A stretch of 64,000 nt of DNA from Gimesia fumaroli (GTDB lineage Bacteria > Planctomycetota > Planctomycetia > Planctomycetales > Planctomycetaceae): contig NZ_CP037452.1 in assembly GCF_007754425.1 (NCBI RefSeq), positions 3,261,164 to 3,325,163 on the forward strand, written 5' to 3'. Of this stretch, positions 23,770 to 59,362 are shown piece by piece; the stretch's first letter is position 1, and every line of letters begins with the position of its first letter. Below the pieces are notes generated by a model. It worked only from the letters and a program-made list of their open reading frames with translations. It made no database searches and had not been told where the DNA came from. A program made the position numbers and the translations under genes.

Positions 23770-26163
23770 TTAGTTTTTCAGAGTTTTCAGACGAGACAGA
23801 AAATCAGGGAAATATTCTGCCTGAATGCCGGGGAGATGTGCCGATTTTCGAGGAACCTGCGCTTCGGTGATCACGGAGTCAGCCGGCGTGAGACTCAGCG
23901 GAGCTGCATATATAAATTTTCCGGTAGACAGCCCTTCGATCAACATACTGGTCGTATTTAGTTCTTCAAACGGTTGTTTGATAGCAGTCTGCCACCCTGC
24001 AATCTGAATGTCTGAGGAAGCGACCGAACCTTCTCCAGCCAGATCGACTGAAGAAAGCCAGTTTTCGGGCGGTTTCGAACCCAGAACCTGAATCAGGGCC
24101 GATTGTGCTAAGTCGAAAACACAATCCTGGCTTTCAATTTGAATGGCCCCCGGAATAATTTTCTCATCACGCCAGTGAAACAAGAGTAGCGGGCCTGACT
24201 TACGCAGGGTGACATGTTTCAGGCTGATGCTGATTTGCTGGTCAACTTCGGGTGGCTGTTCGAAAAAAAGCGTGGAATGTGAAGTGATGTTCAGACAGTT
24301 GCTTAAAGAAATGCTATGAGGACTTTGAGTCAGGTAAATCGCATGCTTGGGGACTGCAAATACGGTATTATGAATTTCTATTTGGCATCCCGTGCGTTGT
24401 TGGGAATCGATGGGTTTCCAGTAGATAGCACTACGGTTAATTGATGTGGCGGACTCGCGTTGATCGTCCAGTTGTGCAAAGAAACAGGATTTGAGAGTCA
24501 AGCCCTGAACGCTTACGTTTAAAAGTGTGGCAGGCTGTTTTTTTTCTGCAGGATTGGTTGGGAGTTGGGGATCACTGGAGTGGTTAATGAGCATCACATT
24601 TTCCAGATGCAATTGCTCTGCCACAACGCTGAAAGCTTCGTTCTCTACATGAATGATCGCAGGGGTATCAGCAGTTCCTCTAATCGTCAGTGGACCTACG
24701 GTAGTAATTTTTGTCGATTCATAAGGAGTTGATAAATCTAATTGGATGATTCCATTTTCGTCGGGGGGCGGAATCAATTGTTTGCTGATCTGCTCAGAGT
24801 CAGCGGGACTGTCGTCCCGCGCAACTGCGGGCATTGATGGATTCTCAGACACAGTCTGTTGATTGAATGAAACCTGAGAGGTGATTTTTAATAACTGGTT
24901 ACGCGCTCCTTCATCAAGGAGCGTCAGAGATAAACCGGAAAGTACAAAAATCAGTGCTGCAATCAGTGGTAATCGGCCTGTTTTCCCAGACGTTGAATCA
25001 GCTTGTACTCGGGGTGTCTGGTTCTGGAAAGAGGCGTGGAATTTCATTAAAGGCTTGCGTGCAGACTGGGGCTGAGCCGGCCAAAGCTTAAGTGCCTCTT
25101 GCATGTTAGCGGGACGCTGCTGTGGATCTGAAGAAACAAACTTCGTCAGTGCCTCGGCGATCGCTATAGGAGTTTCCGGTGCCCATGAACGAATATCGGG
25201 TACGGTTTTGGTTTGATGACAGGCGAGTTTGGCAAGAGGGTCTCCGGTTGTAAAGGGAGGTCGTCCTGCCAATAGTTCCCAGAGTAAGCAGCCTAAGGCA
25301 TACAGATCACTTTGTGAATTCGGGTGATGGCCCGTACCGATCAGCTCTGGGGCAATTCCATCATAACAGCGCGGCGGAAGAGAAGCATGAATAGTGAGCT
25401 CGGGTGAGAGGATCGGTTCGAGTCCTGTATCGACGAGGGCAGCAGTTCCGTCGGCAGCAAGTCGCACATTCCAGGGACGGATATCGCCGTGAATCACATT
25501 CCGTTTTTCCAGCATCGTTAATGCATCGAGTAACTGAGCACCAATGGCGAGTACGACCTGTACGGGAAATCGGCCTCGACGGATCAGCAGCTCAGAGACT
25601 GTGGTTGAGGGAAGATAACGGCTGATGATCACGAACTGCTGTGGGAGTTGTTTGATGATTCGTGGCAGAATCAGAGAGGGGTGCTGCGCACCCTGCAGGC
25701 GTTTCAACAGGTTCTGAAAGTTTTGCTGGATTTGAGTCAGATTATCAGTTTGGGGTCTGGTAATTTTTAACACGCAATTTTCTGTGCTCTCGGGGGCACT
25801 GGCTACAAAGCTACTGGATTTATGGCTGTGGCCTAACTCCGAAATTAATAAGTAGGGACCAACGGCCAAGCGTTCAGGCGTGTCTGATTCCAGTGTGCGC
25901 GCCTGGAAAGGAGTGATTTTTTGTGCCTGGACAAGTGCATCAATCCAGACGGAGTCGAACGCAGGAATTCCCCGGGCTAATTTCTTGACGCGCCGCCGAC
26001 AACGCCTCAGATCTGCTGCTGTGCAGAGCTTGAGCTTTGTTAAACGCTGTAACAGCTCTTGGGAGGGAGGGTCGAGCAAAGTGAAGAAATCCTTTTCTAC
26101 GTCAAAATTGCTGCAGGTGTAACTACTTGTGGTGTCTAATTCTTCTGGCGGCAACCATTCCAC
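23770..26163 (-). CDS. Divergent Ser/Thr kinase-like protein with C-terminal beta-rich domain
   Basis: 797 residues. A helical N-terminus of about 100 residues precedes a kinase domain (about 100-370). The ATP lysine is present (CVLKITRP, about 131). The catalytic loop reads HGDIRPWN, keeping Asp and Asn but with Arg for Lys; DFG is DTG; APE is present. The glycine loop is degraded (LGHSHKSSS). It may therefore be weakly active or a pseudokinase. A membrane helix lies near 400. The outward part (about 470-760) has short beta repeats of right-handed parallel beta-helix style. The start is GTG 26163; no good ribosome site is seen and no better start exists. It lies upstream of pyrB on the same strand, 155 bases away. 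Confidence 0.8.
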   Translation of the reverse strand: MEWLPPEELDTTSSYTCSNFDVEKDFFTLLDPPSQELLQRLTKLKLCTAADLRRCRRRVKKLARGIPAFDSVWIDALVQAQKITPFQARTLESDTPERLAVGPYLLISELGHSHKSSSFVASAPESTENCVLKITRPQTDNLTQIQQNFQNLLKRLQGAQHPSLILPRIIKQLPQQFVIISRYLPSTTVSELLIRRGRFPVQVVLAIGAQLLDALTMLEKRNVIHGDIRPWNVRLAADGTAALVDTGLEPILSPELTIHASLPPRCYDGIAPELIGTGHHPNSQSDLYALGCLLWELLAGRPPFTTGDPLAKLACHQTKTVPDIRSWAPETPIAIAEALTKFVSSDPQQRPANMQEALKLWPAQPQSARKPLMKFHASFQNQTPRVQADSTSGKTGRLPLIAALIFVLSGLSLTLLDEGARNQLLKITSQVSFNQQTVSENPSMPAVARDDSPADSEQISKQLIPPPDENGIIQLDLSTPYESTKITTVGPLTIRGTADTPAIIHVENEAFSVVAEQLHLENVMLINHSSDPQLPTNPAEKKQPATLLNVSVQGLTLKSCFFAQLDDQRESATSINRSAIYWKPIDSQQRTGCQIEIHNTVFAVPKHAIYLTQSPHSISLSNCLNITSHSTLFFEQPPEVDQQISISLKHVTLRKSGPLLLFHWRDEKIIPGAIQIESQDCVFDLAQSALIQVLGSKPPENWLSSVDLAGEGSVASSDIQIAGWQTAIKQPFEELNTTSMLIEGLSTGKFIYAAPLSLTPADSVITEAQVPRKSAHLPGIQAEYFPDFLSRLKTLKN

Positions 26164-32183: not shown

Positions 32184-34973
32184 TTATTCCTGGTCCGATG
32201 TCGGATTATTTTCTTCGGTTGTCGAGTCCTCGTTAGTTATTGTGCCTTCTGTCGCAGATTCCTCGGTTATGTTTGTGGGAGTCGTTGTTTCTCCATTTTC
32301 CGATTCATCGACGATTTCAGCTGGAATTCGTGCCAGTGAGACGAGTTTGTCGTTTTTATCCAGTTTGATTACGCGCACTCCTTGTGTGTTGCGACCAACC
32401 TGACTGATTTCTCGTCCTCGAACGCGCTGGATGATCCCATTTGAAGTCACCATGAGAACTTCATCATCTTCAGCGACAGACAGGATATCTACAACTTGAC
32501 CGTTTCTGGCAGAGGTGCGAATGTCCCGAATTCCCTTGCCTCCCCGCTTTTGACGGCGGTAGTGCATGCCGCTTCGAGTTTCCTGTTCTCCATCTGTCTC
32601 TTCTTCCACGTCGCTGTCGCTGGCGGAGACCTCTTCTTCTGTTTCAGGTAATTCTTCATCCGTTTCTTCCGATGTGGGGATGAAGCCAAAGGGAGTCCGT
32701 TTACCATACCCATTTTCACAGACTGTTAATAAGCAGTTTTCAGGATCAGCAATCACCATACCGATCACGTGCCCTGATTTGGAGAGCTTGATTCCTTTCA
32801 CGCCACGGGTATTGCGGCCCATGCTGCGGGCGTCAGATTGAGCAAAGCGAATCGACATTCCTTCTGAAGTCGCCAGCAGCAGGTCTTCGCCTGGGGATAC
32901 GATCATCGCTTCGACCAGTTCATCATCGTCGTCGAGTTTGATGGCGATGATGCCGCCGCGCTGTACTCGACTGTAGGCAGAAAGCGGTGACTTTTTTATG
33001 ATGCCATTTTGCGTTGCCATGACGAGGAATCGCTCTTCATCAAACTCCCGTACGGCAACACAATTGGAAACGGTTTCGTCTTCCTGAAGGGAGAGCAGAT
33101 TGACTAGCGCACGTCCTTTGGCAGTACGTCCTTGCAGCGGGAGGTCATAGACCTTAGACCAATAGACGCGTCCCCTGTTGGTGATAAACAACAGGTAGGA
33201 GTGTGTGCTGGCAACAAAGAGATGCTCTATTGGATCTTCTTCGTCCGTTTTAGCTCCTTTGATACCTTTTCCGCCCCGGTTTTGTGCCTGGTAGGTATTG
33301 AGTTGGGTACGTTTGACATAACCTCGTTGTGAGAGAGTCACGACCATGGGCTCTTCTGTAATCAGATCGTCCCGGTTGACATCGGTCAATTCATCATCGT
33401 TGATATCGGTGCGCCGTTTGTCAGCGTATTTGCCTTGGAGGTGCAACATATCATCACGAATGACAGCACGGATGTGATCTTCGTCAGACAGTAGGTATAG
33501 ATATTCCGAAATGGCTTTAAGCAGTTCTTTATGTTCATCGCTTAATTTTTCGCGTTCCAGGTTTGCCAGTGAACCTAATTGCATTGAGACTATGGCTTCA
33601 GCCTGATTTGCTGACAGAGAGTAATATTCATGAACTCCCTGTTCGTTCTGGTATTCCTGAAATCCGTCATCTCCCAATGCGCGTTCGATTAGCTTACCAT
33701 CAACCTGCATGCCTTGTAGACTGACTTTGGCTTCAGCTCGGCTGGGGGAATTGCGGATCGTTTTGATGACTTCGTCGATATCAATCTGCGCAATCATCAA
33801 GCCTTCGACCGTGTGTTTTCTTTTGCGTGCCTCGGCAAGCAGAAATTCGGTTCGTCGGCGGATGACGTCAATGCGATGCAGGATAAACTGCTGAATTAAT
33901 TCTTTGACAGACAGGGTTTCCGGTCGGTTTCCTACCAGAGCCAACAGAATAATGCTGAAGGTGCTTTGCAGCGGAGAAAATTTGAATAACTGTGCCAGCA
34001 CGACTTCTTTGTCGGCATCCCGTTTCAGAATGATCTGCAGGTGAACTTTCCAGGGGGGGACGTTACGGTCTGTCAGGTCGACAATGCGCGAGATTCCTTT
34101 AACGCGATCATCGCGAACCAGGGTTTCCAGTTTTTCCCGGATTCGGTCACGCGTTTCCATGTAAGGAATTTCAGTCACGACGATGACATCGGACTGTTTT
34201 TCCGTCTCGAAGTGAGTGCGGGCACGGAGTGTGATGGTCGATCGCCCTGTTGCGTAACCTTTTCTGATTCCGTAGCGACCACAGATAATGCCGCCGGTGG
34301 GAAAGTCCGGACCAGGCATGATCTGCAGAATGTCATCAATGGTCGCTTCGGGATGATCGATCAATAGTGTGACCGCTTCACAGACTTCTCCCATATTCTG
34401 AGGGGGAATGCTGGTAGCCATACCGACCGCGATCCCACTGGAACCATTGACCAGCAGGTTGGGAAACTTGGAAGGGAGAACAACGGGCTCATCATTTCGC
34501 TGGTCGTATGTCGGAACAAAATCAACCGTATTCCGATTGATGTCGTCCAGCATTTCCGCAGCGACGGGAGAAAGTCGTGCTTCCGTGTAACGCATGGCTG
34601 CGGGAGGTAATCCAGCCAGAGACCCAAAGTTCCCCTGTTTGTCAATCAAGACGTTGCGCATCACCCAGTCTTGTCCTAAGCGGACCAGTGTTGGGTAAAT
34701 TGATCCGTCACCATGAGGGTGGTAGTTACCACTGGTGTCACCGGAAATCTTTGCGCATTTTACCCGTGATGAACTCGCTCCGAGGTTCAAATCGTTCATG
34801 GCGACAAGGATTCGGCGTTGTGATGGTTTTAATCCGTCACGTGCATCAGGTAAAGCGCGGCTGATAATCACACTCATTGCATAAGTGAGATAGCTGTCGC
34901 GCATTTCGTCCTGGATATCCAGGTATTTAATATTTGCATCAATTTTCGGCTCTTCGCCGTTGTCGCTAGCCAA
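32184..34973 (-). CDS. gyrA: DNA gyrase subunit A
   Basis: 929 residues. Catalytic Tyr in [11 protein letters not shown]-terminal [18 protein letters not shown]; and GyrA-box [10 protein letters not shown] marking gyrase rather than topoisomerase IV. The start is a TTG at 34973, supported by AAGGAG eight bases upstream; the next in-frame Met is at residue 24, inside the conserved core. Two extra acidic stretches are present: about residues 760-800, Glu/Asp-rich between blades of the C-terminal beta-pinwheel, and a Thr/Glu-rich tail after about 890. The enzyme introduces negative supercoils with GyrB, which is not in the window. It lies upstream of rfbB and ugd on the same strand. Confidence 0.95.
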
Positions 34974-35473
34974 TCCTTGTTCTCCTTAAGGAATTTAACT
35001 ACTGATAGTATTTGGTTTTAGTGGTTATTTGATTGCGATTAGCTCTTAATGTGCATGCCCAGTGAGAGCGGTCACTATGGAAGACGCATCGCGAACTAAC
35101 TTAGAAACTTCAGAAACGGTTCAACTCTGTTGAAATGGAAGCCCGTTTCATTGAAACAAGCTCGATATTGGGTGAGCCGTTTTCTCTCAAAACCAAGTTG
35201 AAAAGCTGAGTAATTCGTTACAGAATTCCAGTCCTTAAAACATCTACAAATTGTAGTCAAATTCATGCAAATTCACAACTAACAGGGACCTGAATTTTAC
35301 AGCCTTCTAAGGGAGAAAAACCTTGAAAATCAATAAGTTACGTTATCGAATTAATCATTGAGGGGAACACGTTTGTTGCATAGAATAGAGAAAGTCTCCT
35401 TGCGTGTTTCCAGACTGATTTCACGCAGGGAATTTCCTTCCGGAAGCAGGGTTTATTTAAGCTGTTTTTCCCT
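34974..35473. other. 500-base divergent intergenic region with nested hairpin
   Basis: This lies between gyrA (minus) and the kinase-Cache gene (plus), so it should hold promoters for both. I see no ORF with coding features. The main structure is the nested inverted repeat at 35113-35149. The remainder is A/T-rich without confident -10/-35 pairs, so no promoter is claimed. Confidence 0.5.
35113..35149. promoter_or_regulatory. Nested inverted repeat (possible structured leader)
   Basis: Outer arms GAAACGG (35113-35119) and CCGTTTC (35143-35149) enclose a perfect inner hairpin TTCAAC-TCT-GTTGAA (35120-35134), with an eight-base bulge on the right side. Thirteen base pairs in a 37-base span is unlikely to be chance in ordinary sequence. 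There is no T-run, so it does not look like a terminator. It lies about 325 bases before the kinase-Cache gene and 140 bases upstream of gyrA. Confidence 0.45.
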
Positions 35474-37720
35474 ATGAATGAATCAGAACCACCAGAAAAT
35501 AGACCTCAGCCAGCGAAGGGAGCCATTTCTGGTCAGACGCACCAGGGGGTAGAACGCGACGATCTAGAATCGCTGGAGGGAACTCTGAAACAATCACCTG
35601 AGGAGCAGGTGCATGCGGCTCATTTGAGCAAAGACAGATTCTCGCTTCCCACAAAAGTTCCCGGTTTTGACATGATACGGTCTCTGGGAGAAGGCTCTTA
35701 TGGCTCAGTGTGGCTGGCTCAGGAAGAAAATACGGGTAAGTATGTCGCGATTAAGTTTTATACCTATCGCCGGGGGCTGGACTGGTCGCTATTGAATCGG
35801 GAAGTAGAGAAGCTGGCGGAGTTGTATACATCCCGCCATATTATCAGTTTGCAGGGGGTTGGCTGGAATAGCGATCCTCCCTACTACATGATGGAATATC
35901 TGGAGAACGGCTCTCTTTCTTCCTTTTTGGATGCAGGGCCTTTACCAGTTTCTGAAGCGGTGCGAATTGCCAAAACGGTTTTACTGGCACTGGTACACGC
36001 GCATGGTCGAGGGATTTTGCATTGTGATTTGAAGCCGGCGAATATTCTGCTTGATGCCAATTTTGAACCGCGGCTTTGTGATTTCGGGCAGTCCCGTCTT
36101 TCAGACGAACAAAGCCCTTCTCTGGGGACATTGTATTACATGGCCCCCGAGCAGGCTGATTTGCAGGCGGTTCCAGACTCGCGGTGGGATGTTTATGCGC
36201 TGGGTGCCCTGCTCTATCATATGTTGTGTGGGAAGGCTCCCTATCGTACGGCGGAAAATGAACAGGCCATCCGTAATTTGAATTCGCTTGAAGAAAAATT
36301 GGAAGCCTATCGTGATCTGATTCGAACATCTCCACGTCCTGCTGAACACCGCAAGGTCTCCGGAGTCGACCGGCGTCTAATTGAAATTGTTGATCGTTGT
36401 CTGGAACCAGATCCGAAAAAGCGGTTTCCTAATGCTCAGGCTGTGCTGAGCAGTTTGCTTCAACGAGAGCAGCATCGGGCTCGCCGACCTTTAATTGCAT
36501 TAGGGATCATCGGACCTCTTTTGTTGATTTTAGGCTTGATACCAGTAGCGGGAGCAGCCGTCAATCAAATGGTTCATAAGTTTCGGGAAAATTTGACGGC
36601 GCGGGCACTCAGCAGTGATTTCATTTCTGCGAATTTACTGTCTCAATATATGGAACGGGATCTTCAGGATCGCAAAGAGCAAATGGTTGACCTCTCTACC
36701 AGAACATTATTACGGCAAAATCTTCAAAAGTTTCAGGATAAAGAGCAACCAGAGGAATCCACGCTGCAGGTGATATCTGAGTATTTGAATCAAGAGAAAG
36801 AAATTGTTGATAAAAAACGAGCCGAATTAAAACGAGAGCAAGATACAAGTTGGTTTCTTACCGATGCAAATGGAACACAAATCTGGCGCGATCCGGTGAG
36901 ACCTACGATTGGGCAGGATTTCTCTCATCGAGACTACTTTCATGGACATGGGTTGGAGTATCCAAAGGGTAAGGCTCCTAAAGGTATTAAGCCGATTACC
37001 GAACCATATATTTGTCAGGTTTTTAAAAGTGATGCGACCAATCAATGGATGGTGGCAATTGCGGTTCCCGTTTGGGATTTAAAAGAGGAAAAGGTGCTGG
37101 GAGTTTTAGCTAGAACTACGCATCTGGATCAGTTACTGACGGGATTTGATGAAAGTATCCGTGGTAACTCTGAACGAATCGGAGATCGTAAGATTGCGCT
37201 GATTGACAACCGTGATGGAAAAGTGTTGGCACATCCGGAAATGACAGCGAATTACCTACGGAAAATGAATCGTGGAGAAGTGGATCGTTTGGTTCTCAAG
37301 GAAAAGCATGTTAATCAATTGCAATTATCCAGGTTAGCACAACAGAAAAATCAGTCTGGTGCTCTGCCCGCGGTGGTGAACGACTATCATGATCCAGTCG
37401 AAGCCGTACTCTCTGATGATGATCAGGATAATGTCTGGTTGGCAGCTTTCTCGCCCATCGGTACGACGGGATGGACGGCCGTCGTTCAGGAACGGCGAAG
37501 TATGGCTTTGCGTCCTGTAGCGGAGATGCGCAGCTGGCTCATTGAATATGGGATTATTGTACTGGTAACGAGTTGCCTGTTAATTTTCACTGTCTGGTAT
37601 TTTGTCATGAGAGTTTTAACGGAACGGCGTGGATGGGACTGGTCTCGCCAGCAGTCTGAGAAGCGTTCCGATCAAGGCTCTACCTCAGCGAGTTGGCCCA
37701 GTCATCCGCATGGTTCCTGA
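35474..37720 (+). CDS. Membrane Ser/Thr kinase with extracytoplasmic Cache sensor
   Basis: 748 residues: kinase, helix, sensor, helix. The kinase (about 65-330) is canonical: glycine loop GEGSYGSV, Lys93 in AIKFY, HCDLKPAN near 182, DFGQS near 203, APEQ. A helix near 345-365 leads to a region of about 290 residues outside the cytoplasm. It has a long helix and the double-Cache signature WFLTDANGTQIWRD...DFSHRDYF. A second helix follows near 695-720, with a short tail. Cache domains bind small ligands. The protein is therefore a one-component receptor that should phosphorylate Ser/Thr when its ligand binds. The ATG at 35474 is clear. It is 33 bases upstream of the FHA-cyclase gene, so one operon. 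Confidence 0.9.
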   Translation: MNESEPPENRPQPAKGAISGQTHQGVERDDLESLEGTLKQSPEEQVHAAHLSKDRFSLPTKVPGFDMIRSLGEGSYGSVWLAQEENTGKYVAIKFYTYRRGLDWSLLNREVEKLAELYTSRHIISLQGVGWNSDPPYYMMEYLENGSLSSFLDAGPLPVSEAVRIAKTVLLALVHAHGRGILHCDLKPANILLDANFEPRLCDFGQSRLSDEQSPSLGTLYYMAPEQADLQAVPDSRWDVYALGALLYHMLCGKAPYRTAENEQAIRNLNSLEEKLEAYRDLIRTSPRPAEHRKVSGVDRRLIEIVDRCLEPDPKKRFPNAQAVLSSLLQREQHRARRPLIALGIIGPLLLILGLIPVAGAAVNQMVHKFRENLTARALSSDFISANLLSQYMERDLQDRKEQMVDLSTRTLLRQNLQKFQDKEQPEESTLQVISEYLNQEKEIVDKKRAELKREQDTSWFLTDANGTQIWRDPVRPTIGQDFSHRDYFHGHGLEYPKGKAPKGIKPITEPYICQVFKSDATNQWMVAIAVPVWDLKEEKVLGVLARTTHLDQLLTGFDESIRGNSERIGDRKIALIDNRDGKVLAHPEMTANYLRKMNRGEVDRLVLKEKHVNQLQLSRLAQQKNQSGALPAVVNDYHDPVEAVLSDDDQDNVWLAAFSPIGTTGWTAVVQERRSMALRPVAEMRSWLIEYGIIVLVTSCLLIFTVWYFVMRVLTERRGWDWSRQQSEKRSDQGSTSASWPSHPHGS

Positions 37721-37753
37721 AACCATACACTTGGAATATGAGGGAGAATTTCC

Positions 37754-39538
37754 TTGTTGGAATTAATGATCTATGGAGCGGACCCTAAGAATTCCTGCAA
37801 AGTCAGCTTGGAGCCCGGGCAGGAACTTGAGTTGGGACGGTCGCAGGATACTCCGGTTTCGGTCCCTTGGGATGATCGGATTTCCAGAAAGCATGCGCTT
37901 TTGACCGTGCAGCAGAAGCAGGTTTTCGTGAAGCGATTTCCATCTGCAGGGAATCGGATTTTTGTCGCTGGTATGGAGCAGGATGAATTCCTGCTGAATC
38001 CCGGGAGTGCATTTGTAATTGGTACCACAACGTTCCAGCTGATGGATTCGGTTTCCAGCTTTGCCTCACCGCGAGAATCTCCCTTAGAAGAGGTGACTTT
38101 CAAACCCAATGAGTTATTAAAGGTCAGGTATCGTGATGCCGACCAGCGAATTGATGTTTTAGCACACCTGCCAGACTTGATTATGGATGCGCGAAATGAG
38201 GCAGATCTGTATCATCGGCTGGTAACAATGTTATTGTCGGGGGTAAAGCATGCCGATGCTGTCGCGGTTGTTCGCTTAAATGCTGAAGATCGAGTAGAGG
38301 TTCCCTTCTGGGAGCGTAGACGACAGACCCAGGGAAATTTCCACCCCAGTGGGCGGCTGGTACAGGAAGCAGTAAAAAAGAGTAGACGGAGTGTTTTGCA
38401 TGTCTGGGCGTCCAAAGAAGATGCTCAAGACGAGGATGATTATACAGCTGTAGCTGAATTTGACTGGGCATTTTGCACACCGATTGAAGATGGTGACTCG
38501 ATTCGGTGGGGATTGTATGTAGCAGGCGAATTGAACCACCCCTATCAGGCATCTATTCCTCAAGGGACCAGTGGAATTGATCTTCAGGCAGACGTGAAAT
38601 TCACGGAATTGGTTGCATCCATTGTTAAATCGGTCAGACGTCTGAATCAACTGGAACGGCAGCAGGCAGGTTTGAGACAATTCTTTGCTCCTCCGATTCT
38701 GGCTGCGATCGGAGACAATCTGAATACAGAAATATTGGAGCCTCGAGAATGTGATGTGACGGTCCTGTTTTGCGATTTACGAGGCTTTAGTCAGCACGCA
38801 GAGGATTCATCCGAAGACTTGATTGGTTTGCTGGATCGAGTCAGTCAGGCGTTAGGGATCATGACCTCGCATATTCTTGAGTTCGGAGGTGTAACCGGTG
38901 ATTTTCAAGGGGATGCTGCATTAGGATTTTGGGGGTGGCCCTTCTCTTCAGATTTGGCACCATTGGATGCTTGCCGTGCCGCTCTAGCGATTCGTGCTGC
39001 TTTCGAAGAGATCAAGCTGCAGCCTGATCACCCGCTTTCCGATTTCCGCATGGGGATCGGGATTGCCCATGGAAGAGCTGTTGCTGGAAAGATTGGGACC
39101 AGTGAGCAGGTCAAGGTCTCTGTCTTTGGTCCGGTGGTCAATCTTGCCAGCCGCCTGGAGGGGCTGACGAAACATCTGAGAGTGCCGGTTTTAATGGATG
39201 AAGCGACGGCACAAATTGTCAGGAGTAAGCTGGATCAGCAGGAAGGACGCGTCCGGAAGCTGGCTCGAATTCTCCCCTACGGTATGGAAAGGTCTGTCAT
39301 CGTTAGTGAACTGGTTCCTCCAGAGAGGCAGGCTGAAACCCTTACGAATGAACAAATTATGTGCTACGAAACAGCTGTTGACTGTTTTATTGAAGGCCAA
39401 TGGGAAGAGGCATTTCGGTTGTTGCATGACATTCCTCCTTCAGATAGAGCCCAGGACTTTCTGGCCTTGCAAATTACCCGTACAAATCGAATCGCTCCAG
39501 CCGATTGGGATGGGACTATCAGGTTTGATAGTAAGTAG
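37754..39538 (+). CDS. FHA-GAF class III adenylate/guanylate cyclase
   Basis: 594 residues in three parts. FHA domain (about 3-95) with LELGRS, SRKH and the folded beta core; it binds phosphothreonine peptides. GAF-like domain at about 135-300. Class III nucleotide cyclase at about 330-500: metal Asp in LFCDLRGFS, second Asp in FQGDAALGF, transition-state Asn/Arg in VNLASRLEG. A helical tail follows. The product is likely cAMP, but guanylate specificity cannot be excluded. The start is TTG 37754: AGGGAGAA lies seven bases before it, and the FHA domain begins at once, while the next ATG (37766) is too far from that site. It follows the kinase by 33 bases; the kinase may create the phosphothreonine that the FHA domain reads. 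Confidence 0.9.
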   Translation: MLELMIYGADPKNSCKVSLEPGQELELGRSQDTPVSVPWDDRISRKHALLTVQQKQVFVKRFPSAGNRIFVAGMEQDEFLLNPGSAFVIGTTTFQLMDSVSSFASPRESPLEEVTFKPNELLKVRYRDADQRIDVLAHLPDLIMDARNEADLYHRLVTMLLSGVKHADAVAVVRLNAEDRVEVPFWERRRQTQGNFHPSGRLVQEAVKKSRRSVLHVWASKEDAQDEDDYTAVAEFDWAFCTPIEDGDSIRWGLYVAGELNHPYQASIPQGTSGIDLQADVKFTELVASIVKSVRRLNQLERQQAGLRQFFAPPILAAIGDNLNTEILEPRECDVTVLFCDLRGFSQHAEDSSEDLIGLLDRVSQALGIMTSHILEFGGVTGDFQGDAALGFWGWPFSSDLAPLDACRAALAIRAAFEEIKLQPDHPLSDFRMGIGIAHGRAVAGKIGTSEQVKVSVFGPVVNLASRLEGLTKHLRVPVLMDEATAQIVRSKLDQQEGRVRKLARILPYGMERSVIVSELVPPERQAETLTNEQIMCYETAVDCFIEGQWEEAFRLLHDIPPSDRAQDFLALQITRTNRIAPADWDGTIRFDSK

Positions 39539-39702
39539 TTTCATCAATCTGGGGGGATGTTATTGGTGGAGGGATTTGCCTTGCTGTTCGGGTTTTACTG
39601 GCTGGGTGGAATACTGAAGTGAAGCAATCTGTTTCTATACAAAAATTATCAGAAACATCTGCCAGCCGGATAAAGCTGACCTATTTTTTATCAACGGACA
39701 TC

Positions 39703-39720
39703 ACATAAGTGGATATGTGA
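39703..39720. promoter_or_regulatory. Inverted repeat CACATA-N6-TATGTG before small gene
   Basis: The arms at 39703-39708 and 39715-39720 are exact reverse complements with a six-base spacer, in the 230-base gap between the cyclase gene and the 53-codon gene. It could be an operator. It is not the usual CRP arrangement, which has TGTGA on the left and TCACA on the right. The role is inferred from symmetry and position only. Confidence 0.3.
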
Positions 39721-39769
39721 TCTGGTCCTTTACCACTTGGGTTAGTCAGAACAGGCGAGAGATTTTGCC

Positions 39770-39931
39770 ATGAGTAATGCAGAACTATTAGTCAAGTCGG
39801 ATTCAGAGTTAACAGATCAAGAATTTAAAGTGAGTGAGAAAGTTGAAATTGAAATCGATAACCGCTCTCAAGAGATGTTACTTGTCTTAAACGAAGTCTT
39901 TGATTCCATTATTCCATCGTCCCAATCTTAA
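39770..39931 (+). CDS. Small protein of unknown function, 53 residues
   Basis: ATG 39770 to TAA 39929-39931. The protein is acidic with alternating charged residues (SEKVEIEIDNRSQEM) and a hydrophobic end (LLVLNEVFDSII). There is no signal peptide or membrane helix. GGCGAGAG lies upstream of the ATG. It is immediately upstream (30 bases) of the response regulator and downstream of the cyclase, so probably part of the same unit. No family is recognised, and it is shorter than most automatic cutoffs. Coding is supported by the clean frame, biased codon use and position rather than by homology. Confidence 0.5.
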   Translation: MSNAELLVKSDSELTDQEFKVSEKVEIEIDNRSQEMLLVLNEVFDSIIPSSQS

Positions 39932-39961
39932 GTAATGATTTATAGGTAGTAGGTTCCTCTC

Positions 39962-40588
39962 ATGCTACATGCATCAGAAAAATCAAGTGCCCGCGTCCTG
40001 GTAATTGACGATGACCCGCTCTTTCGTAATTTGATGGTTTCATTTTTGCGGAGAGAGTACATTGTTTCTGTTGCCAGTGATGGTTCGGAAGGATTTTACA
40101 AGGCACTCGAATACCCTCCAGATATTGCCATTGTCGATGTGCAGATGGCGGTATGGGACGGTTTACAAACGCTGAAAGCCTTCCGCTCACATCCGGTGTT
40201 GAGTCAGACGAAAATTATCATGTTAACCTCTGATGCCAGCAAAGAAACCGTGGTTGCTGCTATTCAAGGTGGGGCCAATGACTATATTATTAAAACCAGT
40301 TTTTCCAAGATGGAATTTTTGGAAAAAGTACGGAAATTTACTCAACCTGGCAGTGCAGGAGTTGCGAATACTCCCAATTCTTCTAAAAGGCAGCATTCAG
40401 CATCTACACCTGTCGCTGCTGCTGCAGCCCTCCGTAATGTAGACCGGCGGGACGCTGGGAATTTAACTTCGAACACCGGTAACAGCGCAAGTACAAAACC
40501 CAGTTCGGTTGAAGATCAGCTATCGGGCCTGACACTCGATAAAACCGAAGAAGAGGCGTTGGAAGAAATGATGGACGACTGGGATTGA
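39962..40588 (+). CDS. Response regulator with receiver domain and Ser/Ala-rich tail
   Basis: 208 residues. The N-terminal receiver (about 8-128) is complete: paired acidic residues in VIDDDPLF, phospho-acceptor Asp in IAIVDVQM, Thr/Ser in MLTSDA, and Lys in YIIKTSF. The remaining 80 residues are rich in Ser, Ala, Asn and Thr, with an acidic end (EEEALEEMMDDWD) and no DNA-binding or enzyme domain. So it is a single-domain, protein-interaction type regulator. No histidine kinase is in the window; the partner may be elsewhere or the receiver may be modified otherwise. It is the last gene of the 35.5-40.6 kb plus-strand group and is followed by a strong terminator. Confidence 0.9.
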   Translation: MLHASEKSSARVLVIDDDPLFRNLMVSFLRREYIVSVASDGSEGFYKALEYPPDIAIVDVQMAVWDGLQTLKAFRSHPVLSQTKIIMLTSDASKETVVAAIQGGANDYIIKTSFSKMEFLEKVRKFTQPGSAGVANTPNSSKRQHSASTPVAAAAALRNVDRRDAGNLTSNTGNSASTKPSSVEDQLSGLTLDKTEEEALEEMMDDWD

Positions 40589-40662
40589 ATTTGATCTTGA
40601 GGTCAAGTCTCCCATAAACATTTTCCACTAGTAAGTCATCGTCGATTGGTAATAGGAAAAAT

Positions 40663-40698
40663 AAAAAACCACACAGAATAGAGCCTGTGCGGTTTTTT
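40663..40698. terminator. Bidirectional rho-independent terminator
   Basis: Arms AAAAAACCACACAG (40663-40676) and CTGTGCGGTTTTTT (40685-40698) pair with one mismatch around an eight-base loop, with A and T runs on both sides. It sits between the convergent response regulator (ends 40588) and the minus-strand gene ending at 40723, so it can terminate both. Confidence 0.85.
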
Positions 40699-40722
40699 AT
40701 GTTTTTGTCCTAAGGCAATTGC

Positions 40723-42372
40723 TTAGAGTGTCTCTTTGGAAAATTTAGCAATGATATTACCGATGAGTCTTAAAATTCCCTTATCGAGTTTTGCCTTTCC
40801 GTCGATGGTGTCCTCTTCCCGCTTCATCACTAAAGTGAAAGTGTCGTCAGTGCTGGTCAGAGATTTTAATGCCATGTCACGGAGTTCCTGGTTCCCTTTT
40901 TGATTCCGAATTTTGTTGAACAGTTTCAACCAGGGAAGAGACTTCACATTCAGCTCAATTACATTGGGGCTGATCATTTCGGGTGGTGCTTCTGTGACTG
41001 TTTTAGCTGCCGTTTTAATTCGTTCAACCGCATCAGAACCAGCGGCCATCCAGAGTGCCTCAGGTGTACTGCCCACATAGAGTGCTTCTCCGTCTCCAAA
41101 CAGTTCATAAAATCCGGCTTGTTGTTTTTCTACAATATTGATTTTATGAATTTTGAGCGACTCTTCATTGACCACATCAAGCTCAATTGTTTGTCCCACG
41201 ATCAGTTTCGGCAGGAGCTCGACAACTTCTTTGAGCTTAGCACCATCTGTTGATCGGATTCCTCCGAGCATCACGTATTTATCACCATCTGCGTTAGTAT
41301 CAATGAAGCCATCAATTAACGATGTTTCTTTACCGGCGTCCAACATTTCAATCACGAGTTCAGCGACTTTACTGCCAGCCGATTTTTGTTCGTCTGTCAG
41401 ATTTTTATTATTCGTAATTCGTTCTTTAAGTGTGGGGAGGAGCAATTTATAGAATGTCGTAATATTTGTTTTACGCATTTCATCAAGAGGATGATTAATT
41501 CTGCCGTTAAGAATACCGTCCTGTTTGACTGGGACCTTGGCAAAATAGCTTGGTTTTATAGCAAACTGCTTTATACTTTCATCCAAAGACGTACCAGCGA
41601 TTGCTTTGAGGGTAAAATCGAGACGGCCTTCATGCTCTGCAGCATCGGTCGTCCAGCCGATGACCATCTTTTGTGATTCTGCAAAAAGTCGCTCGACTTC
41701 ATCCATCTGGTGGGTGAAGGCCAGTTTTCTCAGTTCGTATGCATTTTCCGACTCATCCCGCTTTTTCTTGACAGCTGCCAGCAACTGTTTGCGGGTGTTA
41801 TTCATTGATTTTTTACGGGCATCGACCCCTTCTTTTTCATTAGTAATCAAGGCACTAAAATCATATTTTTGATTTAACAGTTCCTGGACCCGTTTCAGCG
41901 GATCTTTGATTGCCTCTACTTCAGAGAGTTTTTCAGATATGACGACATACTTAGAGTCCTGCAGGTATTTCATAAATCCCTGGAAAAGGTTCCCCAGAAT
42001 ATAAGGTCCTTTTCGTTGTTTTTTTACAGAGATTTCGAAGACTTCTAATGCTTCGCGAAATTTTCCGAGATCATCAACGGGGAGAATTAACCGATACCGT
42101 TCCTGTTGATTTTCTCCCAGTAAAATATCGATTCGCATGGGACGCTGTTTATCGATCCCTTCCAGAAAAGTCGGTAACAGTTCATCGAGATTTCTCCAGC
42201 CTTTTTTGTCATCAGCCAAGTCGAGAACCAGATATTTCAGGTCTGCAATCATACCCTCGGCGTTGATCTGGACTAGCGAGATATTCGGAGCAGAATTGTC
42301 TTCGGCAACAACTGCTTTGGGAATAGAAATTCCGAGCAACAGGATTAAGGCAACATGAGCAATGCGGCTCAT
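40723..42372 (-). CDS. Secreted protein of unknown function (planctomycete-type)
   Basis: 549 residues. Signal peptide (about 1-23, cleaving near AVVA-E). The rest is an alpha/beta, Lys- and Glu-rich protein with no enzyme motif that I recognise. A helical, highly charged central part (about 170-240) is likely coiled coil. The start ATG at 42372 is well supported by GGAGGAACTGT directly upstream. It is exported to the periplasm-like compartment. It is alone in its transcription unit, with a 380-base gap upstream and a terminator downstream. No function can be assigned. Confidence 0.8.
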   Translation of the reverse strand: MSRIAHVALILLLGISIPKAVVAEDNSAPNISLVQINAEGMIADLKYLVLDLADDKKGWRNLDELLPTFLEGIDKQRPMRIDILLGENQQERYRLILPVDDLGKFREALEVFEISVKKQRKGPYILGNLFQGFMKYLQDSKYVVISEKLSEVEAIKDPLKRVQELLNQKYDFSALITNEKEGVDARKKSMNNTRKQLLAAVKKKRDESENAYELRKLAFTHQMDEVERLFAESQKMVIGWTTDAAEHEGRLDFTLKAIAGTSLDESIKQFAIKPSYFAKVPVKQDGILNGRINHPLDEMRKTNITTFYKLLLPTLKERITNNKNLTDEQKSAGSKVAELVIEMLDAGKETSLIDGFIDTNADGDKYVMLGGIRSTDGAKLKEVVELLPKLIVGQTIELDVVNEESLKIHKINIVEKQQAGFYELFGDGEALYVGSTPEALWMAAGSDAVERIKTAAKTVTEAPPEMISPNVIELNVKSLPWLKLFNKIRNQKGNQELRDMALKSLTSTDDTFTLVMKREEDTIDGKAKLDKGILRLIGNIIAKFSKETL

Positions 42373-57691: not shown

Positions 57692-59362
57692 GTGACAGGC
57701 AAGCAGGAGGATCAGTCAGAGTTAGTGATCGAAGTTTTGAATCAGTATCTCGATTACTTACAGAATAGCGACCAGGAAAGTTGTCACGGGTTACGCTCAG
57801 TGAATCCCGAACTGAAAAATCTGATGGCCTGTCTGGATTCACTGGAACGATTGGCGCCAGATACCGAAAACGCAACTCAAGAAACGCGTTCTCTGGGACC
57901 AGATGATGTCACACAGCTGGTTCCGGGCACTCCATTCAAGCAGTCTGAGGCTAAGCAGACTCCTGAATTCGGGAACTATGAGTTGCTGGAAGAACTCGGC
58001 CGGGGTGGAATGGGGGTGGTTTATAAAGCACGTCAGAAAGACCTTAACCGGATTGTTGCCTTAAAGACGATCTTAAGTAATCAGTTTGCATCCGAAGAAG
58101 AAGTGCGTCGGTTCTATCTGGAAGCCCAGGCCGTGGGGCGATTGCAGCATTCAAATATTGTTTCGATCCATGAAGTGGGCCAGTATCTGGGCCAGCATTA
58201 TTTCACGATGGATTACATTTCTGGCGGCTCATTAGCAAACTCGGGGCCGCAAACGTTTTCAGAGGCGCCTCAGGTTGATTTTATTCAGGTGGCCTCTCTA
58301 TTACAGCAGGTTTCCAAGGCTGTTGAGTATCTGCATTCTAAAGAAATTATTCATCGTGATTTAAAGCCGTCAAATATTCTGATTGATGAAAACGGGATGG
58401 CTTATGTCACCGATTTTGGTCTGGCGAAAGTGTTTGATGCAGTCCATCAGGATGCACACACACAAAGTGGGACGATCGTGGGAACGCCCGGCTATATGTC
58501 GCCTGAACAGGCAGCGGGACAGTTAGACGATATTTCGGTTCGTAGCGACGTCTTTTGTCTGGGGATTATTCTGTATGAACTTCTAACAGGCGTTTCACCG
58601 TTCAAACAGAATAGCCCATTAGAGTCACTGGTGTCCGTAATTGAAGGCGAACCCCCCCTGCCTCATTCGCTCAATCCAGAGATCCCCCATCCATTGGAAC
58701 TGATCTGTCTCAAATGCCTGGAAAAAGATCCGGAGCTGCGCTATCAGTCCGCTTTGGCTCTGGCCGAGGATCTGGAGCGTTTTATTGCCGGAGAACCGGT
58801 TCTTGCACAACCAGCCGGATTTCGTCATGCGTTTCAACGCTGGTTTCGCAGGCAGCCGGCTTTGGTTTCTCGTCTGTCTGCGATTGTGCTCTCAACGGGT
58901 GTTATTCAGACGGTATACTCAACGCAAGGCGTCGATTTCAATTATCATCTTAAGATCATGACCCTCTTTAGCTTGTGGGGAATTCTGGCGCTGTTTTTTC
59001 AGTGGTGCATGGATCATTTCAGGAACCAGGAAAAAGTGCGCTATTGTTGGGTGGCTGCCGATGTTTCATTGTTAACGGGGTTATTAATTCTAGCAGACTC
59101 TCCCATTGGCATTTTATTGATTGGTTACCCGATGCTGATTGTTTCCGCAGGACTGTTTTTTTATGTGAGGCTCGTGTATTTCACGACTGTATTATCCCTG
59201 CTTGCATTTGCGGTACTCGTGTTGGTGAGGCCGGAATTAACCGGGCTGTGGCAGTATCCCGTGATTTATGGGATGGTTCTGGCGATTCTGGGGATGATTA
59301 CCGCCTTCCAGATATATCGTGTTCGTGTCTTGAGCCGTTATTATGAATTGCGGCGGCCTTAA
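57692..59362 (+). CDS. Membrane Ser/Thr protein kinase
   Basis: 556 residues. An acidic N-terminus of about 95 residues precedes a canonical kinase domain (about 95-370): GRGGMGVVYKA, Lys in VALKTI, HRDLKPSN, DFGLAKV, PGYMSPEQ. From about 390 the protein has several closely spaced hydrophobic helices, with short loops and no extracellular domain, so sensing may occur within the membrane. The start is GTG 57692, with AGGAA just before it and no ATG that fits. It is linked to the ECF sigma gene 66 bases upstream, most likely one operon; the kinase should phosphorylate the sigma factor or an associated protein. Confidence 0.9.
   Translation: MTGKQEDQSELVIEVLNQYLDYLQNSDQESCHGLRSVNPELKNLMACLDSLERLAPDTENATQETRSLGPDDVTQLVPGTPFKQSEAKQTPEFGNYELLEELGRGGMGVVYKARQKDLNRIVALKTILSNQFASEEEVRRFYLEAQAVGRLQHSNIVSIHEVGQYLGQHYFTMDYISGGSLANSGPQTFSEAPQVDFIQVASLLQQVSKAVEYLHSKEIIHRDLKPSNILIDENGMAYVTDFGLAKVFDAVHQDAHTQSGTIVGTPGYMSPEQAAGQLDDISVRSDVFCLGIILYELLTGVSPFKQNSPLESLVSVIEGEPPLPHSLNPEIPHPLELICLKCLEKDPELRYQSALALAEDLERFIAGEPVLAQPAGFRHAFQRWFRRQPALVSRLSAIVLSTGVIQTVYSTQGVDFNYHLKIMTLFSLWGILALFFQWCMDHFRNQEKVRYCWVAADVSLLTGLLILADSPIGILLIGYPMLIVSAGLFFYVRLVYFTTVLSLLAFAVLVLVRPELTGLWQYPVIYGMVLAILGMITAFQIYRVRVLSRYYELRRP

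Follow-up and report, generated by a model that had tools for sequence, protein, structure and literature searches.

A receptor kinase and an FHA-linked nucleotide cyclase form a conserved gene pair with a candidate phosphothreonine contact in a planctomycete family

A four-gene signalling locus in Gimesia fumaroli

We examined a 64,000-nucleotide stretch of Gimesia fumaroli DNA (NCBI RefSeq assembly GCF_007754425.1, contig NZ_CP037452.1, positions 3,261,164 to 3,325,163 of the forward strand; hereafter the window, whose first letter is position 1). It carries four same-strand genes, designated here KIN, CYC, MIC and REC, which stand in the order given in a preliminary description of the window. 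KIN is a predicted receptor kinase and CYC joins an FHA domain to a GAF domain and a class III nucleotide cyclase, while MIC is a micro-protein and REC a stand-alone receiver. Sequence comparison identifies KIN and CYC as a conserved pair in this planctomycete family, and a threonine in the KIN N-terminal tail may connect the two. The features of the pair are as follows:

35474..37720, + strand: KIN, Ser/Thr kinase, transmembrane (TM) segment, dCache and TM segment, a receptor kinase of 748 residues
35582..35584, + strand: codon of Thr37 in the variable KIN N-terminal tail, T-x-x-Q motif, candidate FHA docking phosphosite
35627-35629, + strand: codon of KIN Ser52
35672..36445, + strand: KIN Pkinase domain, residues 67-324, with K94, D185 (HCD, non-RD) and D203FG
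36629..37486, + strand: KIN dCache_1 sensor domain, residues 386-671, predicted to lie outside the membrane
37754..39538, + strand: CYC, FHA, GAF and class III nucleotide cyclase, 594 residues
37754..38047, + strand: CYC FHA domain, with R29, S44, H47 and N67 conserved
38138..38653, + strand: CYC GAF domain, recognised by fold only
38744..39193, + strand: CYC class III catalytic domain, with metal-binding Asp341 and Asp387, Asn463 and Arg467
38900..38902, + strand: codon of CYC Asp383, the substrate-selecting position

KIN matched the Pkinase profile at 161.8 bits (cut-off 31.7), and K94, D185 (within HCD, hence non-RD) and D203FG were invariant in 19 aligned proteins, as in Hanks-type Ser/Thr kinases. 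The dCache_1 match (54.9 bits, cut-off 45) sits between two TM segments, with hydropathy peaks within residues 336-368 and 686-716. In CYC, the region between the FHA and catalytic domains has the GAF fold (alignment of 26 sequences less L088), and no Pfam GAF family was matched at E ≤ 10 in seven CYC proteins.

KIN and CYC are retained together across the family

Relatives were surveyed across the phylum (294 genomes, with the best 4 CYC candidates per genome) and within the family (134 genomes, at least 90% complete, with the best 9 candidates per genome for CYC at E ≤ 1e-60 and the best 13 for the Cache part of KIN at E ≤ 1e-12). Genomes carry G labels below and the loci fetched for comparison, 80 kept out of more than 542, carry L labels. 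In the phylum survey, strong full-length relatives of CYC were confined to its own class. Outside the class the best match reached E = 1.4e-29 and most of those listed covered the catalytic part only, although in G017, G115 and G233 the match (25-27% identity) began on the FHA side and reached the cyclase; the Cache part of KIN gave four matches there, all weak.

Within the family, 130 of 134 genomes matched CYC and 125 matched the Cache part of KIN. Both were present in 125 genomes, CYC alone in 5, KIN alone in none and neither in 4 (Fisher's exact test, 9.8e-6, uncorrected for kinship; the four genomes with neither represent two genera). The two genes adjoin in six of six genomes of the genus and in several genera of the family, as well as in two other families of the class (G167 and G205). 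Among the matches listed, same-strand adjacency was found in 52 of 134 genomes and 24 of 50 genera; four genomes (G296, G297, G309, G408) have CYC outside that list, and G335 was scored as adjacent through second, weaker copies. At linked loci the gap between the KIN and CYC matches ranged from -4 to 394 bases, and spacings of only -4 and 2 bases suggest an operon. The preliminary description had proposed that conserved adjacency in relatives would favour the two genes being a unit and that the lack of a conserved neighbourhood would count against it; when relatives were examined, the neighbourhood was there.

The surroundings of the pair are also partly shared. A divergent DNA gyrase A gene (32184-34973) lies upstream of KIN in Gimesia and at several other loci, thereby anchoring the synteny. 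In several genera CYC is followed by a Cys-rich protein of 99-127 residues and a staphylococcal-nuclease-like (SNase) protein (L067:7947-8753, L074:7585-8548 and others).

Such linkage could be inherited synteny and nothing else, with KIN phosphorylating different targets and the FHA domain of CYC recognising another phosphoprotein or CYC itself. Several observations lean this way or weigh against a strict partnership: in 69 genomes matching both genes the two were not seen side by side (on different contigs in 62, apart on one contig in 7), G306, G321 and G406 match CYC well but KIN not at all, G366 combines a paralogue-like CYC with a normal KIN, and the Gimesia genome offers other kinases in number, with 34 Pkinase matches. 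However, KIN and CYC are both kept after separation and are absent together. A partnership also fits G332 and G333, where KIN is missing and the sole CYC is weaker and paralogue-like, and G345, where a similar CYC accompanies a 50-bit KIN match. The tail of KIN and a second cyclase locus, described below, bear on the same alternative.

An invariant threonine in the KIN tail and a conserved FHA domain in CYC

In the 19 aligned KIN proteins Thr37 was invariant and Gln40 nearly so, while the rest of the tail varied. Among 64 distinct KIN proteins, 62 had usable tails (L176 and L179 did not), and all 62 carry Thr37. The +3 residue is Gln in 59, Met in 2 and Tyr in 1, and most positions flanking Thr37 vary widely. 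Thr37 is also kept where KIN is not linked to CYC (L080-L084). A stricter tail pattern occurred in 47 of 62 KIN proteins versus 2 of 23 kinases of the genome, one of which was KIN itself (30 of the 34 Pkinase matches were used in this control, and 23 had the catalytic motif sought); the T-x-x-Q patterns were devised post hoc, from the alignment. A plain T-x-x-Q somewhere in the tail region was found in 7 of 22 other kinases of the genome too, which leaves the fixed position as the telling feature. Together these observations make Thr37 a good candidate for an FHA docking site. Ser52, 15 residues past Thr37, is invariant in 63 of 63 aligned tails; the conserved stretch of the tail thus exceeds one site, and Ser52 could be a second phosphosite.

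Elsewhere in the genome, the kinase at L243 has a tail motif, ETIYQT, resembling that of KIN, making it a second candidate FHA ligand. The window itself holds two more kinase domains (57977-58756 and 25093-25845).

The FHA domain of CYC matched Pfam at 22.6 bits (cut-off 20.7) and fell under the cut-off in four of the seven CYC proteins scanned. The FHA phosphothreonine motif consists of GR, SxxH and NG (excerpts of PMC1262709). R29 and S44 are present in all 122 distinct CYC proteins, N67 in 121 and H47 in 120, with N67 followed by R in CYC where the motif has G. Each of these residues is thus present in no fewer than 120 of the 122 proteins and would suit CYC to the role of phosphothreonine reader assigned to it in the preliminary description, and the invariant Thr37 is a plausible ligand, consistent with the kinase-FHA partnership suggested there.

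A second FHA-cyclase in the same genome, 39% identical to CYC (L003:5383-7170), has a kinase within ~6 kb (matches at G000:C1:2171480-2172379), and the matching gene in L086, L087 and L089 is a kinase with TPR repeats. An FHA-cyclase therefore lies near a kinase twice in this genome, the second time with an effector binding cyclic nucleotide monophosphate (cNMP) at hand. The nearby kinase of the paralogue and a Thr37 that is invariant in an otherwise variable tail, unlinked genomes included, both argue against synteny alone, which we regard as rather unlikely.

The paralogue region (L003:1-10443; G000:C1 about 2171480-2182442) also contains cytochrome c genes, a cNMP-binding and 4Fe-4S protein and an extracytoplasmic function (ECF)-type sigma factor, in a gene order largely common to L086, L087 and L089 and partly to L088. 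It is possible that the region is a cyclic-nucleotide-controlled respiratory module. A search for cNMP-binding effectors gave 8 matches genome-wide, none within the window.

The selecting residues of CYC point away from specific cAMP production

Both metal-binding Asp residues and the transition-state Asn and Arg are found in 122 of 122 distinct CYC proteins, as expected of class III enzymes, so CYC is probably active as a cyclase; the intact catalytic residues noted in the preliminary description are shared by the whole set. Its product is another matter. At the first selecting position adenylyl cyclases carry Lys and guanylyl cyclases Glu; at the second, guanylyl cyclases have C, S, T, H, A or G, with Thr found there in some adenylyl cyclases as well (excerpts of PMC4215837). 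At the first position the 122 CYC proteins have Asp in 120, Glu in 2 and Lys in none, which departs from ATP-specific adenylyl cyclases, and at the second they have Thr in 115, Gly in 5 and Ser in 2, all permitted in guanylyl cyclases; the pair is Asp-Thr in 113 and Glu-Thr in 2. The best PDB sequence match of the catalytic domain was 2w01, the Cya2 guanylyl cyclase, whose Glu aligns with Asp383. By sequence, adenylyl cyclases scored only slightly lower, and by fold they ranked higher.

Cyclic AMP (cAMP), which the preliminary description had named as the product, is thus unsupported as a firm assignment. The acidic residue at the ATP-selecting position makes it more likely that the cyclic nucleotide is cGMP, or that specificity is mixed or relaxed, than that CYC is specific for cAMP. 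KIN and CYC could still cooperate with cAMP as the output if Asp383 is compatible with ATP use, as the Thr at the second position (in 115 of 122 proteins, and in some adenylyl cyclases) and the adenylyl cyclases heading the fold matches would allow. Set against this, the residue that would read ATP is Asp or Glu rather than Lys in every CYC protein, and guanylyl cyclases carry Glu there; we think a cAMP-producing pair improbable, if quite conceivable.

MIC and REC constitute a semi-separate module

The remaining features of the locus are as follows:

39770..39931, + strand: MIC, micro-protein of 53 residues, core RxxExLxxLNxxFD (codons 39863-39904)
39962..40588, + strand: REC, stand-alone receiver with D59 acceptor, variable linker and C-terminal LxxhhDxW[DE] tail (40559-40585)
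40661..40700, strand not assigned: hairpin 3' of REC with terminator-like sites on both strands, from a consensus scan only

No Rfam match above the gathering score was found within 34970-40760. In the interval between CYC and MIC, promoter-like sites were not enriched (5 versus 7.7 in shuffled sequences), and the consensus scan gave no terminator-like site on the + strand.

A frame as short as MIC, whose window copy had no Pfam or NCBIfam match at E ≤ 0.1, might be spurious or a leader. However, nine Gimesia copies show less amino-acid change than silent change (overall pN/pS 0.42, and 0.10 versus 0.64 for the C-terminal part). A profile from 12 seeds was searched against the window and the fetched loci (54,821 six-frame segments in all), the loci having been chosen for holding CYC, KIN or REC. 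Ten non-seed loci outranked the first off-target match (E 2.9), all of them just 3' of CYC or just 5' of REC; three scored E 0.21-0.29 and one E 2.2, and these four rest on position. With first-round matches included in an iterated profile, the loci at E < 1e-3 were all in those places and the next match had E 0.42. MIC spans 16 genus labels, Gimesia included, beside CYC or REC, and 32 database proteins match it, hypothetical wherever named. The constraint, the expected placement of the non-seed loci and the database matches make a spurious or leader frame highly improbable. One of 23 members gave a single chance-level match in each of Pfam and NCBIfam. By these comparisons, including an alignment of 22 of 33 listed proteins with the window copy, MIC is a real protein family without annotation, with the core RxxExLxxLNxxFD.

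All 40 distinct REC proteins have D59, K111 and D17, and T89 is found in 37 with Ser in 3, the pattern of a receiver. The protein ends in W followed by D, E or N in 39 of 40; L188 alone lacks the tail, and it stops 24 bases short of a contig end. This LxxhhDxW[DE] tail follows a highly variable linker, lies outside the Response_reg domain and resembles a short docking motif. A DNA pattern for the tail had 5 matches in the genome, one being REC, and the reversed pattern had 1. A motif shared by the MIC core and the REC tail is no more than an idea: REC tails averaged -2.6 bits on the MIC profile, a value that 1% of column-permuted tails reach, but this average is below zero and the register was chosen by eye.

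REC was matched in 39 of the 134 family genomes, leaving 95 without a match (E ≤ 1e-25, best 23 candidates per genome). In 29 of the 39 it lies 385-865 bases 3' of CYC on the same strand; G348, whose KIN is on a separate contig, is one of these. The seed pattern of MIC was found upstream of 23 of 42 REC matches, so many receivers have no recognisable MIC. At L213, L214 and L221 MIC accompanies REC well away from CYC or on a separate contig, and MIC stands right after CYC with no REC match in the stretch at L097, L125, L138, L175, L197 and L210. MIC and REC are a semi-separate module. That the receiver provides an input to the cyclase, as had been suggested, is supported in part: REC lies close to CYC in most genomes with a match, but 95 genomes had no REC match and at three loci it stands apart.

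MIC and REC might instead be an independent two-component output module that merely adjoins the cyclase, as the 231-base gap between CYC and MIC in the window, the three separate loci and the lack of a REC match in 95 genomes, with CYC found in 130, would suggest. The repeated spacing of REC behind CYC and the six loci with MIC directly 3' of CYC tell against independence, to which we give somewhat less than an even chance. A more specific idea is that the KIN tail, as pT-x-x-Q, recruits a guanylyl-cyclase-like FHA enzyme in a bacterial receptor-to-cGMP pathway based on Ser/Thr phosphorylation, and that phosphorylated REC, through its tail, and the similarly spaced LxxLNxxFD helix of MIC compete for one surface. 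We consider this combination doubtful; if it were true, two-component and Ser/Thr signals would converge on one cyclase.

Discussion

We propose a phosphothreonine-gated cyclic-nucleotide pathway made up of KIN and CYC, with docking of the FHA domain on Thr37 and with cGMP or a mixed product the likelier output, and give this model about an even chance. The invariant Thr37 and the conserved FHA residues make an autophosphorylated tail read by the FHA domain the simplest mechanism. A ligand outside the membrane, sensed by dCache, would alter KIN activity, and KIN would autophosphorylate Thr37 of the tail, either in cis or in trans, the T-x-x-Q motif there being conserved. CYC, in which the phosphate-binding residues are present, would dock on pThr37 through its FHA domain and so be brought to the receptor. 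Docking may then shift the state of the GAF-linked class III domain and change cyclic-nucleotide output. Where present, phosphorylated REC and the MIC helix might, to judge from linkage, tune CYC or share its partner.

In kind, this would be the kinase-to-FHA signalling already known, here with a cyclase as output. In the Agrobacterium type VI secretion system, PpkA, Fha and TssL likewise involve a Ser/Thr kinase that makes a phosphothreonine read by an FHA protein (excerpts of PMC3953482), but that reader acts on the secretion system, whereas the FHA domain of CYC is fused to a GAF domain and a nucleotide cyclase. No type VI secretion proteins were found among five neighbours scanned by Pfam, two of which had no identification. 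The mycobacterial PknQ and MupFHA similarly pair a kinase with an FHA partner, with no cyclase output named in the available passages of PMC4238996. In Myxococcus xanthus PKN2 a Hanks-type kinase is linked with a class III domain, as in KIN and CYC, and the selecting positions hold Glu and Thr, a combination found in 2 of 122 CYC proteins, versus Asp and Thr in 113. In contrast to the pair, PKN2 is a single polypeptide with a TM segment after the guanylyl-cyclase-like domain, and the same excerpts (PMC1262709) mention no FHA or Cache domain. Synechocystis Cya2 (PDB 2w01) shares the acidic selecting residue with CYC but has a Glu-Gly pair where CYC is mostly Asp-Thr (excerpts of PMC4215837).

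Literature searches found nothing joining an FHA domain, adenylate cyclase and Planctomycetes, nothing joining a class III nucleotidyl cyclase with FHA in bacteria and nothing on a Gimesia maris phosphoproteome. Among the matches listed, as far as their available text goes, the pair of a kinase-Cache receptor with an FHA-cyclase is undescribed.

To our knowledge, few outputs of planctomycete kinases are known. For one such kinase the locus suggests a probable partner and one candidate phosphosite, along with a product that can be measured. Two further elements emerge from it: a micro-protein family that Pfam and NCBIfam lack, and a receiver tail conserved beyond the Response_reg domain. CYC would also join the short list of bacterial guanylyl cyclases as a candidate.
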